Positions 3,517 to 58,305 of a stretch of DNA of 64,000 nt are shown here, piece by piece; position 1 is the first letter of the stretch; each line of letters begins with the position of its first letter. Origin of the DNA: Hoplostethus atlanticus (Eukaryota > Chordata > Actinopteri > Trachichthyiformes > Trachichthyidae). The notes under the pieces were generated by a model that was not told the DNA's origin, made no database searches, and was given only the letters and a program-made list of their open reading frames with translations. The position numbers were made by a program, and so were the translations under genes. The DNA lies in the NCBI GenBank assembly GCA_034670405.1, contig JAXDDX010000002.1, positions 3,876,001 through 3,940,000 on the forward strand. The letters are read 5' to 3'.

Positions 3517-3647
3517 CTCCCTGTCCTTGAGCTTCATGGCCAGGACCAGCTGGTTGCGATGGTTGGTCAACGCCTCGCGGTAGTTGCCCTTGGAGAAGAA
3601 TGCCGAGCCCAGATTCCCATGAGCGCGGCATTCCCCTGTTTGGTCAC
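3517..3647 (-). CDS. ttc28: ttc28 coding exon (TPR unit), third of the three in this window
   Basis: This 131-bp exon encodes 43 full codons after completing a split glycine codon. The peptide contains TGECRAHGNLGSAFF and SKGNYREALTNHRNQLVLAM, a textbook TPR helix pair with the G-Y-A spacing, and I recognise it as TTC28. The acceptor reads ...cctacccag before GTGACCAAAC, and the donor is GGGAG followed by gtaaga, so both ends are clear. It starts in the phase left by the exon at 4898-4626 and ends in phase 0. TTC28 is a very large TPR-repeat protein with a C-terminal CHAT-type domain, reported at the mitotic spindle midzone and midbody and as an Aurora B partner. That role is family knowledge, not visible here. 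The remaining exons should lie below position 1. Confidence 0.93.
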
Positions 3648-4625: not shown

Positions 4626-4898
4626 CTAAGGTCTTGGCCACCTCCAGGTCCTGCTGCATGTAGCCGGTACTCTTCTCGGTGTTGCCCAGGGACCAGTGGG
4701 CACTGCTGAGGGCTGAGTAGACGGAGCCACGTAGCTTGAGGCTGCAGGTGCCGATCTTCAGGGCGGCTTCCAGCACAACAACGGAGGCTGTGTGGTGGCT
4801 GCCTGTCAGCAGCTCCTGGCCAATCACAGACACCACCACAAAGGGACTTTTGTCCAGCTTCATCTTTTGCAGCTGCTGATAGGTGGGCTCTAGAGACT
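4626..4898 (-). CDS. ttc28: ttc28 coding exon, second of the three in this window
   Basis: This 273-bp exon completes a codon split after the exon at 9868-9721 (G plus AG gives Glu) and leaves one base at its 3' end. It encodes SLEPTYQQLQKMKLDKSPF, then a hydrophobic VVVSVIGQELL segment, then a TPR-like helix pair running from GSVYSALSSAHWSLGN to MQQDLEVAKTLG. The acceptor is ttcttgtacag before AGTCTCTAGAG. The donor is ACCTTAG followed by gtgagagg. From memory, the peptide differs from mammalian TTC28 at only a few positions (for example SAHW for SAYW and QQDLE for QQDLD), as expected for a fish orthologue. No stop or frameshift interrupts it, so it looks functional rather than a retrocopy. 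Introns on both sides confirm that it is part of the parental gene. Confidence 0.94.
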
Positions 4899-9704: not shown

Positions 9705-9720
9705 CCAGTGAGTATTGTAC

Positions 9721-9868
9721 CTCGTAACGGGGACTTCATGGCGGCCTCCACCATGCCCACCAGCAGCTGCAGGCTCTTGGGGTCTTGGGCCAGCCCCGAG
9801 GCGAAGGCGGCCAGCGCGTCGGCATGGCGACCAAGGTACTGAAGGGCGACACCCTGTCGGAAGTATGC
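9721..9868 (-). CDS. ttc28: ttc28 coding exon, first canonical exon visible in this window
   Basis: This 148-bp exon starts in phase 0 with Ala-Tyr-Phe-Arg and encodes AYFRQGVALQYLGRHADAL followed by AAFASGLAQDPKSLQLLVGM and VEAAMKSPLR. The first 34 residues form one complete TPR with the usual G/Y/A/F/P landmarks. The remainder leads to the linker continued by the exon at 4898. The acceptor is a (CT)n tract ending in ctgcag. The donor is TTACGAG followed by gtacaatac. In mammalian TTC28 this segment follows a conserved Lys-Trp-Pro-Lys, encoded by an upstream exon that I could not find in this window. The exon is unusually hemmed in by microsatellites, with (AG)21 on the acceptor side and a (CA)n array about 16 bp past the donor. 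Confidence 0.94.
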
Positions 9869-9917: not shown

Positions 9918-12222
9918 TCAGGGCTCCAGTCTAGCGCCACAGCAAGGGGCTTTATGCAAACACATTACCAGACACACTCATTTCACGCCATGTGCATTTT
10001 TTCCACACGAGCAGGTTTCAGAACATGGCACCTATCTCCTTTGTATTCCCATAATACAGTGATCACTGGCTTTTTTTGTACTTGTTAATTGGATTATAAG
10101 TTTTACATAAATGCACAAGTGACACACTGGCTGGCTTGCCTTTCTCAGGAGCAACTATTGTTTTGCTATTCACTGTTTTTTGTTGTTTTTTCTGCTTGCT
10201 GTGGGAGTCAACTGCACACAAGTAGAGCATCGGGATTTTTCTTTGGCTGTGTTGGAAAAAAAAAATAAAGAAAGAGAAAAGGGAGACAGAGAGAGAGAGC
10301 TACTTACTGGAGTCAGCCTGTAGCGCCATAAAAGAATACCCATAAATACTTCAGACTCTTCATTCTCTTTCTCAGGGCGCAGTTGTAAAATAATAACACA
10401 ACTAGAGTCTGTTTCTGGCATGTTTTTACATCAGACGTGTGTAATCATGTCATGCCCTGGACATGTGGATGGCTATGCAAGTAGAAAAAGAAAAAAAGAA
10501 AAGAATTGAACTTGTCATCTACTGGTTTATTCACAGAGCGGGGGAAAGTCACATGGTTGAGAGCGTGACTCAACACCAGGGGTGACATAAACTGCATGTG
10601 ACTGCCGACATTTCTGATTGTGAGAGTCTCAAATCTTTTGGAACATTCTGCAGATTGAAAACTAAAACAGACGCTGCCTCTGGGATCCAAAACCCCCGCT
10701 CCGTACGTGTTTTTCTTCAGCCTTCAGTCTGTTTAGGCTCATCAGTGTTATCCAGGCAAGTTTGTGTCTTAGTACGTTTGTGTCCCAGGCCTGATGAGAC
10801 ACTAATCCCTGTGAGAAGCTCAACCTGGTCCAGGCCAACAGCAGCAGCAGCAGAGAGAAATGGAACCAGATACAGCTAACTATCCACTATCCAAACCACT
10901 AAATCCCCCCCAAGAGCCAGCGAATGGTCTCCCAGTCAAATCTGGACCCTATGTATGCGTTTGTGTGTGTTGGGGTGTAGTGGGGGGCAGTAGCAGTCTA
11001 GGCTGCCTTCTGGCCACTTCCTCAGTGAGTAGGCAGTCACTCCACTAGCAGCTTCCAAAAGTGACACAGGGGCTAATTTGCCATTAGCATCTAAGGCCTT
11101 TTCATTAGTCTTCCCAAGCTTCTCCGTTAGCACCGCTAGGGAGCGGGGGAAAGGGGGAGAGGATTAGGGAAAATGAGACATGACATCGAATTTATGGAGA
11201 CCAGTAATTAATTTTGCTTCCGTCTGAGGCCCCCGTAGACTACCAATCTCTGCCCTGCCGCCCCCCACTGCCCGTTTCCACCTCCCTCCGCTTGCATCAC
11301 AACTCCATTGAAACGGACGAGGACGGAGATTAGATTCAAAGCATTAACCTTTGTTCTAACACTGTTATTATAGGAAGGGGAGCGCGGGCCAGGGTAGCCG
11401 CTCAATATTAATTGCATCTCGTGGTGGTGGAGTTTTGGGCAGGACGTAGCGGAGAGGGAGGAGAGGCCCACGGACGTTCCGCCTCGGGGAACGGCAGACA
11501 TTTAAAAGCACTTCTCCCTTTGATTAGATTTACAATATGACTGCTCTCCCAGAGATTTTGCTTCCATTCTCTTCTAAGCGCTGTGCCAGGGAAGGACCAG
11601 GGAAGGGAAATAAGGCTTGCTTCAGACAAAAAAAATGGCATCTCCTTTAATCCTTTTATTTTACCCTAGCCTGCATGCAGCTAAAAGCCTATACTGTTCA
11701 GAGAGAGTATTAAAACGCTGCAAACACAAGCATGGGAATAAATGCATAAACCAAAGAGACGATGCGCTGTGAGACGATAAATCTCTCAGTGCAGCCAAAA
11801 CACATCATGTAGGCTGCACAAAGACACGCACACATAATATAACCGCAGCTTTTCCATAATCTAACAAGTCAATTCAACCAGGGTTCACCATAAAACAAAG
11901 GGCTCACTTGAATTGACATTACAGTAGCTGAATACCAACTCAGGACAAAACTGATACGACAATTCAATCAAGACTGATGTACAGTAGGACCTTAATGGTG
12001 CATAACAGGAGAAAGCAGTAGAAAGAACAGGCAACAAGTTGACTTTGCTATTGGCATGGAGCGTTCTGGGAGAGCAGAGAGCGAGCTTTTACCCCCTACA
12101 TGACATTTTCTATTCACACTTAACAGGATCGTTTCTAAAAACACAGCAGCATCTACTTAAAGCTGCTACTACAGCGATTAGCACAGCCTCTAGCTCTCAG
12201 CTCGACAGAAAGAGAGGGCGAT

Positions 12223-28398: not shown

Positions 28399-29160
28399 TA
28401 GAGTGGTGCAGGGATGACGTATTTTTGTGGAGGTTTTTGTGGATGCTAACCTGGAGGTTAGCATCGCCCTGGTTCCCTCGACAAAAAGCCAATGGGATTT
28501 TTGCATTGGATTTTGGATTATTGCAGAAAATAAGCTCTGTGGCAAATACGAGTTTATGATACTGACCTACCAAGTGTCCTACCAAGTTTTGTTCAGCAAG
28601 ATAATCTTCACAAATGAACACTACTTTTATTATTTTTGAAGCGTAAATGCAATTGCCAGAAGTAAAAAAGCTAATGTTAGGCTATAAACAAACTACACCA
28701 CGGTCGCATGACTTCAACGTAACCACCACTAAAAATACTAAAAATACTATAAATTGATAAATCTACAAGTTGGAAAGTTTGAGTGAGAAAAGTTTGGAAG
28801 AGCGCGAGTATAAACACAACTAGAGGCTGTAAAGGCAGACAAGAGAGGAGATGAGTTACCGTGTGATGCGTTTAATGTCCCCGACAACCTCTGTAGTCTC
28901 ATTTAGCCACTTGTTAGCAACCGCCTTTTTTAAGACACGTAAAAGCTTCAAAATTCACGAGTGGGGAATTTAATGACGTATTTTATGTCGTAGAAAAAAA
29001 CATGAAAACCTCTTAAGCTTGTGTTAACCACAGACCTTATTTCAGGCATCTAACCAAAAACCAATTAAAAAAACCCATAGACTTCGAGACGAGGGAACCG
29101 GAAGTGCAAAAATGCTAACTCATTTCTGGGGTTTAGGACTCGTTCCTGCACCACTCTATA
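28399..29160. mobile_element. Non-autonomous TIR DNA transposon (MITE-like), 762 bp
   Basis: The left end TAGAGTGGTGCAGG (28399-28412) is matched exactly by the reverse complement of the right end, CCTGCACCACTCTA (29145-29158). The outermost TA on each side fits a TA target-site duplication, as in Tc1/mariner-type elements. Near the left end is a perfect 10-bp hairpin (GATGCTAACC, 4-nt loop, GGTTAGCATC, 28442-28465). There is no long open frame, so it could move only with a transposase supplied elsewhere. The superfamily is not certain; piggyBac-like or other TIR families remain possible. Confidence 0.75.
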
Positions 29161-31667
29161 ACAGCCTATCTTAATAGCACAACAACAACCAGCCGCTGTG
29201 TGCTTAAGAGAATTAAGGGCTTGGTGGGAGGAGGAGGGAGTGAAGTGCGAAGGTTAGAAATGTAATCTGAGAAAGACAATCACCGTCACTTATCGCATCT
29301 TTTGTGGAGCAGGTCTGTTTTTATCAGTGACACTAATTTAACTCATTGGTATTTACAGAGGACCAATAGGACTGTGCTGTGGGAAGGAGAAAAGGGAGAA
29401 CTGGAGAAAAAAAGGCTGTCAAACCAATTCCCACCAACCCCCGCTTCCTTCATTATCTATGGCTGCTGGTTACAGAAATACCTAATTGGGTGGCTGGAGG
29501 TATGCTGTTGATCTGTCTGCCTCCTTTGTTCTTTCCTGTGTAGATGTGTCTTATCGGTGTAAAGCATAAGTAGAGGCAGGCTACTTACAGTTTAATACAA
29601 AAGACTTGTGCAAATCAAAAGGCTACTGATTGGTATTTACAGCTGTTTGGAGAATAGATAGCCCATGTCAGAAGTATTGTGCTTCATTTTGTGAAAAGTG
29701 AGAACAATTACCTTTTGAATAGTAACACCAACGATTCAACGATACTTTGTTCAGTTCAAAAAATGTGAACTGAGCTTTTGAGTATCCTTCTCCGATTTCA
29801 TTTCCATACTAAATAGACAGTACTAAAACTATCCCCTTCCAAAATCTGCTGAACCTGCAAGCAGGCAGTCCCTTCCCCCCTGCTGAGCAGCTTTGATCAT
29901 GTCTGTTTCGGTGGAGACAGGTGCTTAGGGCCGCCGGTGAGCAGGGGGTAGGACCTCTCTTCTGCATTCCCTAACCTGGACCAGCACAGCCACAGCACAG
30001 CCCCACACAATTATCCTCAGACAGACACCCAGAGCCAACCAGCTCCACACTCTTAATCACACAGTGGAACTGATTCAATTCATTCGGCCTGGGAGCAGAT
30101 ATGGAGCCATTACGTCCTTATTAACAGAGTGCGGAGGTGGAGCCACACCTGAATGCCCTGGAAATGGGCAGAGCACTCGGCTCAGTCCACTGCGGGAGGG
30201 AGGGAGGAGGGAGGGAGGGGAGATTGCAATTCAAAGATGTGGGGGCTAAATTTGATTAATCCATAAACTGATTTACGACGTCTGATAATATGCTGGTAAC
30301 ACATCGACACAAGGGCTGCTATGATTATATCTGTTATGGTTCATGGCCATCTAAGATAAGGTTGGGCTTGGGCTCAGGAGAGGGAGGGGGCATAATTGAG
30401 TTAGCATTAGGGCAATATCACACTCCTGATTACTACCAGGGTATATAAAATGAAGGATGTAACTTGAGGAGATTTGGCATTAGCCAGTTAGCCAAGTGAT
30501 TTTTATGAACCCTGCTAGAAGCCCAGTTATCAGCTTCTAAGCCAAAAGCCCGTTGTCTTGTATGACCCTCTCATTTAATGCTATACCTCTAGCTTTCACG
30601 GTTGAATAATACTACCACCTTCTTTGTGTGTGGATCCTTTCATTCATGCCTTGAAAATTGTTCTTGGCATTTCTTTTTCCATTGTTGAGCTATTTGGCCT
30701 TCCATCCAGTAAAAAGGGTTAATATGAATGCATCCCGTGATGTGGAAAGCCTCTTTAGGCAGATCAAAAGCCACAAATATGACCACAATTGTTTGAAATG
30801 ACATGTTAAACTCAATGGTATCCCCTTTGCTGAATAAAATGTTCCACTGTGCAATAATGCAACCTCTGAAGAAAAGGCTCATCTTCCTCTTTTGGCACTG
30901 GACTACCATACAATTGAGCAACTATTCAGAGGCTGCCATGTGATTTTGATAAAAATAGTGCCCCTAAAAGAAAATCTCCCTCACCACTCGGGCCATCCCG
31001 ACATCAACATGCCAGTGTCAAGCAAATATCTGTCTAGAATGGAACATGATGAAATGAAAAACTATCTGGAATATCAACTGCTCCCTCCTCAGAAAGGAAA
31101 ACAAGGGCTGGATACATTGAGCAATGGCTGTAAATTAAACGTGAACAGAGAGAGTGCGAGCAGATGGATGGAGCACCAAGTGCTAGTGGATCTAAGTGCT
31201 CCATAAGGGAACGATACACACATCACTAGACCTCAGGGGCAGAGCAGGAAGCCACTCCTTGGCTTGGCGGCCAAAGAAGGATCGCCAGGATGGTATTTCG
31301 GGAATGTTTAACCAAAGCCTTGGGAAGCTCGAGGGATGGTGAAATTATACACCCCGGCTCACAGGCTGTGCGAGTCTGGGAGCCGTTACTCACAGCTCAC
31401 AAGAATGTAATTTATGCATCTGTTTACTAACACAAGCACTTTGTTCTAAACCCCACGAGAGTCACGTTCCTCCTCCAAGTCAGTTTCAATTCCCCATCAA
31501 GGTAAATGCTGTATGAAAGTGTTCCCAAACACTGGCAGAGTATAATCGAAGCTGATTTGAGCTTTTCAGACTGAGGGAAACAGAAAGAGAGAGAGGGGAC
31601 TCTTTTCGGTTCCTAGACTCAATAGGATATGGGGGGGGGAGGCTTCGGTTCACAGCTCTCCCCGTGC

Positions 31668-41640: not shown

Positions 41641-44600
41641 GTCAGGGAAGGGAGGGCTTCAACCAGGCAAGAGACGTGAAGAGGAGTGGTTTCATATCTT
41701 TCGGTGCATTATTTGTACATGTGAGTTTGGTTGTTGGTCTGTATTCAGCGTCTGCGTGAAGATGTGTGGTCTGGCTCAATAACATACACAGACAAGTACA
41801 CTCACACCAATACATACACATAGAAACACGGTAACACACACAGATACAGATGCAGATACTGGAGGTGACCCGGCGCAGTGACAGGGCGGGACGTGACCGG
41901 ATTGAGAATGGTGAGGTAAGAGTGATAAAGTACTGCTTCAATCCACCCACATCCTGTGACCCTGCAATAAGTCAAACACGAACAACATGCACACACACAC
42001 CATAAATAACCCTGCACTGAAGTCTGGAGCAGCCCTCCCTCTGCTCACATTTAGATACATCATTGGACTCAATGTGAGACTGCAAGCTGAAATCTTTGCT
42101 TTGGGGAAAACAAATAGAAAGAAGACACGTAACGAGACGAGTGGAGAAGCTGCTAAAAGCTGCTAAATCTGACGCTCATCCTTTTCTCTATTTTCGTGCT
42201 CTCCCAGGTCACATGCAAAGGAAACGAGGCAAATAAAAATAACTTGCACTGCTCTCTCTCTCCCTCTCTCTCTCTCACATCATGTGGGGTTAATAGAGCA
42301 GGTGTCCACTGAAGCGCTCTCCCTGTACCCTTGGCTCCGGAGCCAAAATTGGGGGTTGATTAGAATAAAAAAACAGCAAACATTTGCTAGACCGTTCAGG
42401 CTAATGTTCAATCTGCTGCTCTCTGACACGGTGCCACTGTGCATCTCATTTCCATTCCTGAAGCCGCACCACGGACCTGCCAGCATCGCTGTGCCATGTG
42501 GTTGGACCGGGGAGAGGGGAAATGAGGAAAATGAGTGGAAGGGGGAAGAGGAAGAAGGAAGGGAGTGGAGTGTTTTTATGTGTGCGAGAAGAAAACGCTC
42601 AACTATTCAGGTTGAGAAAGAACGTGATTCTTACATATAAATGTGTCAGCAAAACATCATCAAGGTCGAGGTGGAAAAAAAAATAGACTTCCGTTAAACA
42701 AACGTGCACAGGTGCAAAAAAAGTGCCCAAGTGAACAGAAGACATTTTGAGAAAATAGGTAGATGAAATCTTAGGGAGCGTCTTGCAGGTTGGGGTAAAC
42801 CCTCAGCACACTTATATCCATCTCAGCTAAAATGTAAACCTCTCACATACACACACAGAAGCGTCTCCCCCCCCCCCCATCTCCCACAGCAGAGAGAAAC
42901 GAGAGAGAAATAAAGACAGGGAGGCAAACTGACAACAGTGGGATATTCTCTTTTGGAAAAATAATAAATGGGGAAAAGGACAGAGGGAGGAAAACATGCT
43001 CCCATGACAGACTGCTCGCTTCTCTGCGTAGCACGTTTCCACTCAATTTCCGCACCATCCCGAAGATAGCATCGCTCCCTCTTTCTCTAGTCCACAGGCG
43101 TGATGAGGGTTGCATAAAATTAGCTACTTGATGGGGGGAACGTGTCCAGGGGCGACATGGAGGACCTTGTTTCCACAGAGTCCCGACATGCGCTGCTCAA
43201 CCCCCCATATCCCCGAGTAACAACACACAATCAGATAGAGAGGGGAGAGGCCTGTTGAAAATAGCACCCCACAGAGCCTCCTCTGAAGAGCACAACCACT
43301 CGCAGAAAATACAGAAAATCACAAACTCCTGGGAGATTTTCTACATACTCAAACTGTCATGTAGATTTCTACCACCCAACCATGTGTGTGTTTGCACGTG
43401 TGTGTGTGTGTGTACATAGATTTGTTGCTTGAATTCGTTAAAAGAAAACCCAAGGACGTTACTCTGCCATCCCATACCCTTCACGCAACCTCTCTCAACT
43501 CTCAGAGAGACAGGACAGACCCATAAATGCTTCATCTACTCTCTGGTATCCCAGTCCAATTACAACTCATCCCACCAAGCCCTTTCTTTCCACACTCTCA
43601 CGGGCTGTCAGATTCTGATATGGAGGGCGTTGCAATATTGAAGGTCGGTCCGTCTACACACTTAACCTCATTTCCCAACACTCTGCTCTGCCTCTCCCAG
43701 AAGAGCCTTTTGATTGGTGTCCATTTGAAAAGGTGGGGGGGGGATCAGAGCAGCCTCAGCAGACTGAGAAAGGAGCTTTATGGAGCACGACTCCTGACTG
43801 CAGTCAGCTATAATAGCTTTCAATTAACCAGGGGAAAAGAGTGAGAACTAATCTGGGCCAGCACAGGAGAATCAGTCATGCAATATTCATGTACACAAAC
43901 TAATGAAAGCCCAGATTAGCCTACATATTTACATGGGGTCGGTGCTGTGTCGTCCACACATTGGAAAGAACCAGCCGCCGAGGGGAGAAAAACAGAGACA
44001 GAAAGAAATAGGAACAGAAAAAGATGGTAAATTGGGAAACTGGGTGAATAGAAAGGAGATTAAGAGAGAAAGAAATCAAGGAGCAAAAAATGAGAGGTCA
44101 ACGGGACACTGGGAAGACCTTGAAGGAAAAAGGAAATGGAATCACGAGATAAAGAGGTGGAGAAAAGCAGGAGGAGGTACGACTCCTCAAAAGAGATTAA
44201 GGATCATCTGCATTTTGCCTTTTCATCTGCCTCTCCACAATCATCCCTCTCCAAAGGCAGACACCAGCCCCCACTCAAGACGACACCAATCTGAATGAGT
44301 GATCTTGACAAATTGAGCTGCTCGAGAAAAGAGGGTGCGTTTTTTTTTTGTCTGAGGGGAGGGAGAGGGGGGCTGTAGACGGCGGGGTGTCTACAACAGG
44401 ACAGAGATATAACTGTAATTGGCTGCTACACTAGGGAGCTCTTCCTTCCTGTAATCGCAGACAAGAAAGTGGTGATTGGTGAAAATGGGACGGCAAGCAT
44501 GAACCAGACCTGCCACAACAGCAAATTGCTTTGTTGCGATGAATGTCATATACGTATCAAACCGATACGGGGAATTCATCCTTAATCCTTAGTAGGTCAT

Positions 44601-54790: not shown

Positions 54791-55688
54791 GAAATCCAAA
54801 CCATGGGCATTTTACTGCTCTGAGACTATTTTATGGATCCCGGGTGATTTTTCAGACATTTTTCCATGTCGTAATACTTGAAGGCTATGAAAATGGAGCA
54901 GTAAGGGGATAAGATAAGACTACACATTCGTTCTGGAAAAGAGACTTTTAATGTGGGAAACGAGGAAGAGACACGTTTGAGTCGCTGTAACGTCTGTAAA
55001 TCCACTGGAAGATTGATGTGCTGGATGATGGGTGCCAGTTCCTTCTGAAACTTTGGGGTGATTTCTTACAAATGTCATTCTGTATGCTTTCTTAAAAGGG
55101 CTTATTTTCCTATTCTGGGCCAGGAGTCAACACTGTGTCGGCCGAAAGCACCAGAGATTCATCCAAGACCAACATGATGTTATGATTATAGTCCCAATTA
55201 AGAATGCGGGCCCGTGTCTAATGTTATCAAGAGAAAGTACACGCAAGCCAAGAGCACACTCGGAAAAAATGAAACCACATTTTATGTCCCCGGGCGCGAA
55301 GTGTGACACCTCTCCTCCTACATATTTTCATTATGGGTATGCATGTGTCTACCTTAGCATCAGTATCAGATATGTAGTTTAGGTTAAAGCCTACAGAGCA
55401 CAACAGCTGACTGTAGGTCTTCTGGACAGTCATTTAGGCGAACTGGAACACAAAACACCAACAGAGAGGAAGATCAAAGTGAAAAGGAATTTAAACTTTT
55501 TGATTGTCTTCATCAACTCTTATAGCTCCAGTGCTACTACCATCTAGGTCCTACCATTTGGAGTAAAAAGAATATACCAAGCAAAGAGACCAGTCAGCCT
55601 ATGACCGAGCCCCCGTCTTGCCAACTTGTGATCTACCGGATAAGCGTTATATTTAGCCATAACTGGAAAAGAAATCAGATCCACTCAC

Positions 55689-55715
55689 CTTCTTCCGGGG
55701 CTGCCATTTCATCAT
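55689..55715 (-). CDS. ttc28: Candidate alternative first coding exon of ttc28
   Basis: On the minus strand, two adjacent ATG codons open a nine-codon frame, MMKWQPRKK, ending exactly at a strong donor (GAAGAAG then gtgagtgg). It ends in phase 0, as required to join the exon starting at 9868 (Ala-Tyr-Phe-Arg). An in-frame TAA at 55751-55749 lies 12 codons upstream, so this ATG would be the true start if transcription begins nearby. An A sits at -3, an acceptable initiation context. The flanking sequence is CpG-richer than the rest of the window. The exon would replace the canonical N-terminus and first TPR units. The alternative reading is chance: donor-like sites are common and a nine-codon peptide is weak evidence. 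An overlapping frame, MAAPEE plus one base, also opens here but is in the wrong phase for the exon at 9868. The assignment is inference. Confidence 0.5.
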
Positions 55716-56640
55716 ATTTGTAAACCAAAAATGAACAGCATTAAGATATTATATGAGAAGGGAATGGAGATTCAAAGAAATCCAGAGCGTAAGTCATGCT
55801 GCCTCTCGACTTTCCTCAATTTTGCAGCAGATTTTCTCCAAGAAGCGACGCATGATGGTGAGCGAGTCTGGGCTTTGCGTCAGTTTTTCGAGGGAGCTGG
55901 CACAGAAAACGCAAATCATTGACTGGTTTAATCCACGGAACGGGTCGGAGAATAAATCAGAGGGACATGGCGTGCTGTTACTCGGCTGAGGGTGTTTTGG
56001 AGACACGGTTCCTGTGCGTAAATCCAAAGTAGCTACCAGTCCGTTATGAGCCCAGTCCCTCCTCACTCAGCCCGCAGGATCGGCGCTTCTCCTCCCAGAC
56101 CAATCCGGACTGTGGAAAGGGGAAAAATGAATTCTTCAACTTTTTTGTAAACGCTGAAGTCGTCCCTGTAGGTGGGCAAGTCATATATACACTATGTCCA
56201 AGCTGTTCTCTCCGCACCTATTCGACCCAAAAGGAAGAAAAGGAAGACGACGCCGGTGCCAAAACGCAGAAACATTCATCACAGTGGTCAAATCCTTGGT
56301 TCCAGCGGCCAAAACACACTTTGGAAAGTGTTCGGGGGGGAAATAGTGCAACAGAACCCCGCGGAGATGGTGCGACATGCAGCGAAATTACTTGCAGGAG
56401 GAGGAGGGGGGGGACAACAACAAAAAAATCCCTGGAATTTCTGTGAGGAGCTGGAAGGATATCCTGGTTCCTGCAACAAACTGGACTACAGCTCTCTGAT
56501 GACTTCCTTCCCTGCTCTTTTCCAGCCTTGCCGTTTGCAGACTTGGAGCTGGAGGAGAGCAGGCGCGAGGTAGCAGGGTCATAGCGCCGCCGGTCGCGGC
56601 TTCCCCTCAAGTGCGCTTTAACGAGAATGGTTACGTTACG
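55716..56640 (-). promoter_or_regulatory. Candidate internal promoter and 5' UTR region
   Basis: This block lies upstream (minus strand) of the candidate first exon and is visibly richer in CpG than the surrounding intron, most of all at 56560-56640. Reading the minus strand, a TATA-like string lies at about 56181-56190. An ATTGG (reverse CCAAT) lies near 56100 and would fall inside the 5' UTR if the TATA-like string were used. No terminator or other gene separates the block from the exon. The assignment depends on the exon call and on base composition only. Confidence 0.35.
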
Positions 56641-56659
56641 CTCTCAGCTGACGCTCTTC

Positions 56660-56773
56660 AGCTTGGGGCTCAGTGTCTTGCTCAAGGACGCGTTGGCCGG
56701 AACACATGGCTGGTGGAGACTGAACCTGGGACTTTCTGGTTACAGGACAGTCTCTCTAAACACTAGGCTGCAG
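56660..56773 (-). mobile_element. Truncated tRNA-derived SINE
   Basis: On the minus strand a tRNA-like head (GCCTAGTGTTTAGAGAG, then B box GGTTCAGTCTC at 56726-56716) is followed by the GTCCTTGAGCAAGAC core shared with the element at 6725-6931. The 3' tail is missing. It lies directly upstream of the CpG-richer block at 55.8-56.65 kb. Confidence 0.65.
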
Positions 56774-58305
56774 TGTCTGGGTTGAGTCAAAAATAATCTC
56801 CAAAAGGGAATTTCCCCAGAAATGCTAGGTAGAGAATCTGCTTTTAAACACTAATTTCTGGTTCGTGTTGTACAGCGGCACGAACATACCCTTTTAAGGA
56901 AGAAAATGAAACACACTTGCATTTCTGAGCTCTGACTAAGATTAATATGATAATGTGTACAATGAAATGTAATTATGAAATTAAACAATTTAGAAATATC
57001 AAATAGGACCCTATCAAAGTAGTTTGCCTTGTTTAGCAATATAGTTTCCATGTTTCTATACAAGATAGAAGCATTCTGGATTATATCACTTGGTTTAGAC
57101 AAAATATTGTTGGCATTCAGTAACTGAGATTTCCACCTTCATCTACAAGTTGCACTGTTCTAACAATAAGAGTCAATACTCTTTTTTGCCCTTAAGAATT
57201 GCAGGTGAAAATATACTAGGCTGTTGAAAGAGAAGAGGTGTTCTATTTTAAAAAAGTATGTCTGCCTTTCAGATCAAAAATAATCACACAGTAAACAGTG
57301 TGTAAATTAGAGGAATAGATGTAGGCCGAGGTTTAAAACTGGGTTTCCAGGCCAGCCCTAATAGGTGCTTCCCAATGTAATTTGGACAGGTTTTTCATCT
57401 GAAGGACCTCGACATTTTATCTGTATGCACTGGAAAAGAGAAGGAAGCAAATGTCTTATGATTTTATGGAGAGGATTAAAACGCTCATGTGGCCTTAAAT
57501 GCTCACTGCTGCTCAATGTAAGCTCTTGTAGAGAGGTGAGGCAGGAGTGTGCCATAGTTGTATAGCCTACATAATACACAGTGGAAATACTGCAGTACTC
57601 ACTATTCAGTACCATGCACCTGTGGTATTGAATAGTGTTTGTAGAGACCTTACTACACTATAGACCTATTTTTTCCATAAGCGGCAGTTCATCTCCTTGT
57701 AAACTAGTCTGACAAAGGGAAGGTGACTAGGTGCACCTACTTTGTGTAAACCCTCCCACACTGCTCAAGCCCTTCGCTGTTTAAACTGGCATTACTGTGC
57801 TAAGGAGGTTCAAGTAACACCACACTACACTGCTGTGGCTGACTTGATCTCTGCCAGGCTACTGTAAGCTATACTGTCCTTGATTGTTTTGTGGGATTGA
57901 ATGGTTGTATAAAAGACAAGATTAAGACAAGGGATGATATTGAAGTGAAGGGAAAATCACTTGAAATGATAAGCTAGTGGTTTAAATTGGTTTAGGTAGG
58001 AGCTGTGACTCGGTCAATAACCTAGTGTCTTCAGGGTCAGTGGGGTACGCAATGCACCCAGGGGTCACTCAGATAACAAAAGGCAAATAGGAGGGGACAA
58101 GTTGACATATGGCCTTATGGACAAACCCCTGCTGTGCATAGAGTCCAAGAGGCACTCGCTAATCCACTTGGATGCACATGAACAAAATGCTTGATACTAC
58201 CTCCACAGCCACAGCTGGCACACAAGCAGAATGACACTCTCTCCACTGTGTTGTGTGGTCAAGCTCTGCGATCAATGCTCACTTTTTGTAGTCAAGGGAG
58301 GAGGG

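Follow-up and report, generated by a model that had tools for sequence, protein, structure and literature searches.

A candidate internal promoter of ttc28 in Hoplostethus atlanticus with a short coding first exon

Alternative promoters are common, and for that reason a second promoter within ttc28 would be unsurprising in itself. A close parallel is found in long genes whose alternative promoters carry coding first exons of their own, DLG2 being an example (PMC5518101); there an internal promoter gives a different N-terminus on a shared protein body. In the gene considered here a second promoter would matter because Ttc28 acts downstream of Dachsous to restrain microtubule dynamics during cleavage and epiboly of the zebrafish (PMC12132318); the splicing of TTC28 exon 20 is treated in PMC10325915. 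We describe a position in a 64,000-nucleotide (64-kb) stretch of Hoplostethus atlanticus DNA, hereafter the window, from which a comparable short form of TTC28 might arise; unlike the DLG2 forms, this one is predicted from sequence. In the predicted protein nine residues replace the canonical N-terminus together with TPR units 1 and 2.

When a working version of the human TTC28 N-terminus was compared with solved structures (132 distinct sequences matched), the top match was an engineered TPR protein and the best natural relative was HOP (STIP1), with E values of 2e-36 for 7kw7 over the whole chain, 2e-18 for its TPR1 stretch alone and 5e-20 for 1elw (HOP TPR1). The likeness to HOP TPR1 in 1elw and 7kw7 takes the form of an ungapped alignment of 104 residues, and TPR units 1 to 3 of this human sequence resemble this carboxylate-clamp domain. 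The clamp residues of HOP, which we take to be K8, N12, N43, K73 and R77, are kept at four of the five positions, N12, N43, K73 and R77 falling on N, N, K and R in the working human sequence, and K8 corresponds to V when the ungapped alignment is extended one residue before its printed start. Tah1 has an analogous carboxylate clamp formed by Lys8, Asn12, Asn43 and Lys79, according to PMC4427203. TTC28 and the term 'carboxylate clamp' were not found together in the open-licence literature searched.

An earlier sequence-only reading had claimed a minus-strand ATG-ATG frame of nine codons, an in-frame stop 12 codons upstream of it and a strong phase-0 donor at its end, and all three are borne out. 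By direct reading of the minus strand over 55.4-57.0 kb, ATGATGAAATGGCAGCCCCGGAAGAAG stands at 55715-55689 and is followed by GTGAGTGGA; the ATG-ATG opens the frame MMKWQPRKK, which is our candidate first coding stretch (55689..55715, minus strand), and the stop is a TAA at 55751-55749. The donor AAG|GTGAGT (55683..55691, minus strand, last exon base 55689) has the highest score among the 7507 GT sites on both strands of the window, as computed with a consensus donor matrix, and by the same scoring it is the sole donor of at least 4 on the minus strand between 55000 and 57000.

The exon to which this stretch would be spliced lies at 9721..9868 on the minus strand and is recognised by reading, by tblastn, by the spliced frame and by Pfam. 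Its acceptor at 9868 is a CT repeat with a GCAG end, and the exon opens GCA TAC TTC CGA CAG GGT (AYFRQGV...) in phase 0 and carries TPR unit 3. The next ttc28 exon, at 4626..4898, and a third within the window, at 3517..3647, are likewise on the minus strand and are identified by tblastn and the spliced frame. With a working version of the N-terminal half of human TTC28 as the tblastn query, matches were obtained near 9868 (91% identity over 53 residues), 4898 (89% over 96 residues) and 3647 (81% over 54 residues), which places the three exons at 81-91% identity to the canonical long form of human TTC28 (TPRBK), in this working version, over the aligned stretches. This query found no earlier ttc28 exon in 9868-64000, and the canonical upstream exons therefore presumably lie beyond the window. 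The exon at 9868 is thus the next recognisable coding exon, and begins in phase 0, as had been proposed.

When MMKWQPRKK is spliced to 9868-9721, 4898-4626 and 3647-3517, an open frame of 579 nt (193 aa) results, the start codon being open to the donor in a phase that fits the 9868 exon. Pfam TPR_2 matches residues 9-40 of this product at profile positions 2-33 of 34 (E 8e-11 for the whole protein), with the last K of the leader at profile position 2, and TPR unit 3 is therefore complete. The spliced frame is without TPR units 1 and 2; of the clamp only the K and R positions, at TPR 3, remain, so that the predicted short form has neither clamp asparagine nor the full set of three units. Because short TTC28 would keep the K and R positions yet lose both asparagines, its uncoupling from chaperones is a specific and testable prediction, one that draws on the working human sequence and on homology.

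Taken alone, the nine codons and the donor are unremarkable. First-order random sequence is expected to contain 1.28 donors this strong per 64-kb strand, and for an equally strong donor combined with a phase-0 ATG and an upstream stop the expectation is 0.40 per strand of that length, with one or more such combinations in 35% of 60 simulated strands; frame and donor are for this reason within chance and do not rise above it on their own. The donors of the three ttc28 exons in the window score -0.5, 5.1 and 6.2 with the same matrix, so that donor strength is a poor guide in this gene, and we rejected it as proof of a first exon on the basis of both the random expectation and these scores. We also rejected the likeness of the leader to the canonical NPKWPK as a sign of function: the resemblance (KW-P-K within MMKWQPRKK) is weak, 15 of the 1891 ATG-to-GT frames, MMKWQPRKK itself included, score at least 15, and on the plus strand a decoy at 43157 reaches 31. 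The unusual part, which we regard as suggestive, is that the donor is situated at the edge of a CpG block; by our own post hoc estimate, the chance of the best donor falling at the block edge on the ttc28 strand is roughly 1% by position and strand. The CpG block is better evidence than the codons and the donor.

This block (55601..56700), a candidate promoter and 5'UTR, was seen with sliding windows moved in steps of 50 across the 64 kb, for which the overall CpG o/e is 0.428. At the 800 bp scale the maximum o/e (0.838) is at 55601-56400 and the maximum CpG count (43) at 55901-56700, with the top CpG retention also inside 55.6-56.7 kb; at 1000 bp the maximum o/e (0.781) and the maximum count (50) both fall at 55701-56700, and the top retention in the same block. 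With 600 bp windows the block leads by count (33) and by retention and ranks third by o/e, and at 400 bp it is exceeded by 28601-29000 in o/e (1.08) and by 11101-11500 in count (23). The CpG-richer surroundings that had been claimed for the exon therefore correspond to a block that ranks first for CpG in the whole window at 800-1000 bp, though not at 400 bp, and at these larger scales the AAG|GTGAGT donor adjoins the 3' edge of the strongest block, with promoter-like composition, part of it SINE-like, lying beside the exon. The two intervals that lead at 400 bp belong to further CpG peaks in intronic elements, one at 28601-29200, and the other at 11101-11700, where TpG/CpA is also lowest at that scale.

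Within the block the CpG o/e is only 0.57 across 56100-56560, and the outer edge is occupied by a stretch (56560..56790) that, from a reading of its letters, looks like a tRNA-derived SINE; a 27-nt piece of it is repeated at 6831-6805 with 89% identity. ARAGORN reported no tRNA in the 64-kb window, the SINE-like stretch included, and no Rfam family reached its gathering threshold in the window. When the block is cut to 55690-56560 to exclude this edge it is not the top window: its o/e is matched by 52 and its count by 24 of 2526 same-size windows (block-overlapping windows included), and it shows no special depletion of TpG/CpA, 227 of the 2526 having values equally low or lower. An ATTGG (inverted CCAAT) box at 56100..56104 and, as an alternative TATA-like element, TATATAT at 56183..56189, both on the minus strand, are weak candidates for promoter elements; because the patterns occur 58 and 31 times respectively on that strand of the window, they suggest a possible start-site position and nothing firmer.

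We propose that 55.7-56.6 kb is an internal ttc28 promoter with a short coding alternative first exon, giving TTC28 without TPR units 1 and 2, and we place this reading about midway between doubt and acceptance. The phase-0 join, the open frame, the strong donor and the CpG peak all speak for an alternative promoter and first exon as originally read, and what has been lost from that reading is the weight of donor and frame by themselves, which are within chance. In the proposed scheme RNA polymerase II would initiate inside the CpG-rich block, possibly around 56.04 kb and so about 60 bases past the ATTGG box, the first exon would terminate at AAG|GTGAGT, and about 45.8 kb would be spliced out to reach the 9868 exon. 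The protein would start MMKWQPRKK-AYFRQGV, without the canonical N-terminus and TPR units 1 and 2, and would retain TPR unit 3 in full together with the remainder downstream of it. Because TPR units 1 to 3 of the working human sequence resemble the HOP TPR1 clamp, the short form would be predicted no longer to grip the EEVD tails of Hsp70 and Hsp90, the remaining TPR array being kept. That ttc28 is transcribed from the block, that the junction is used and that translation begins at the ATG of MMKWQPRKK are steps that we infer.

The nine codons are the least secure part of this model, because of the ATGs upstream of them and of an out-of-frame ATG in a better context. Ahead of MMKWQPRKK on the minus strand, the interval from the putative start region near 56040 down to 55716 contains five ATGs. 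Reading of the candidate 5'UTR gives a 41-codon upstream ORF (55794..55919) and a nine-codon upstream ORF (55712..55741), the TGA of the latter overlapping the first ATG of MMKW; both are on the minus strand and neither has a Pfam match at E 0.05. At 55707, ATGGCAGCC provides a rival start with G at -3 and +4, an initiation context superior to that of the ATG-ATG, and its frame, MAAPEE (55689..55707, minus strand), exits the donor in phase 1 and is a misfit with the 9868 exon. Of the short-isoform splice that had been claimed, the phase-0 join and the frame open through three ttc28 exons hold, and the donor is more secure than the ATG start. The exon could instead serve the transcript as 5'UTR: promoter and first exon would then be real and feed ttc28, with translation starting at a downstream in-frame Met, such residues being present in the 9868 exon, or dampened by the upstream ORFs. 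The five ATGs, the upstream ORF that overlaps the start and the ATG at 55707 would all be accounted for in this way, but MMKWQPRKK runs without a stop into the donor in the only phase compatible with the 9868 exon, and its final K makes TPR unit 3 complete, and we think such a noncoding role unlikely.

It is also conceivable, and to our mind fairly unlikely, that the CpG block serves something other than ttc28, either as an intronic enhancer or as the promoter of a noncoding RNA (antisense or divergent) or of a nested minus-strand gene that begins with MAAPEE and uses the donor in phase 1. CpG enrichment is strandless, a donor on the plus strand at 57535 (score 6.4) ends a 37-codon frame, and the start at 55707 is by context better than the ATG-ATG; yet the best donor falls on the ttc28 strand, and as regards a nested gene or competing coding exons, the four long minus-strand intron ORFs scanned, of 76 listed, gave no Pfam match (E 0.05). 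Chance would instead leave an intronic CpG-rich stretch, partly raised by a SINE-like insertion, beside a strong GTGAGT that is never used. The 0.40 donor-plus-frame combinations expected per 64-kb strand, their occurrence in 35% of the simulated strands and the further CpG peaks at 11.1 and 28.6 kb are all compatible with such a coincidence, which we nevertheless judge quite improbable, notwithstanding these figures, as the highest-scoring donor of the window is on the ttc28 strand and borders the very block that tops the 800-1000 bp scale.

Beyond the internal promoter and short coding exon that we favour, a wider proposal is that a conserved second ttc28 promoter yields chaperone-uncoupled TTC28, the choice of promoter switching Hsp70/Hsp90 recruitment; this we regard as tentative and unlikely. 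If it is true, promoter choice would toggle Hsp70/Hsp90 recruitment in a protein that regulates microtubules and cytokinesis, and the uncoupled protein would lack the HOP-like clamp domain but keep most of the TPR array and any partner binding that resides there. A second promoter would also change how ttc28 mutants are read, since a lesion confined to exons upstream of the 9868 exon would spare the short form. If the N-terminal units are indeed a chaperone clamp, a promoter that removes them would provide a simple test of the role of chaperone binding in TTC28.

Searches for relatives and for earlier reports added little to this picture. Viral contigs yielded no relative, whether the query was a DNA pattern or the exon at 9868, and a search of non-animal genome contigs returned only one alphaproteobacterial TPR stretch of 42% identity, which is irrelevant here, and no animal relative. 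The peptides MMKWQPRKK, KWQPRKK, WQPRKKAYFRQ, MKWQPR and KKAYFRQGV are not printed in the open-licence literature searched.

Two further splice sites deserve mention. The plus-strand donor at 57535 reads GAG|GTGAGG and lies roughly 1 kb outside the CpG block, where it possibly belongs to a divergent transcript. The ttc28 exon that ends at 9721 has a very weak consensus donor, GAG|GTACAA at 9720 on the minus strand (score -0.5), and given this donor together with the pure CT-repeat tract of its acceptor, the exon at 9721-9868 may be skippable.
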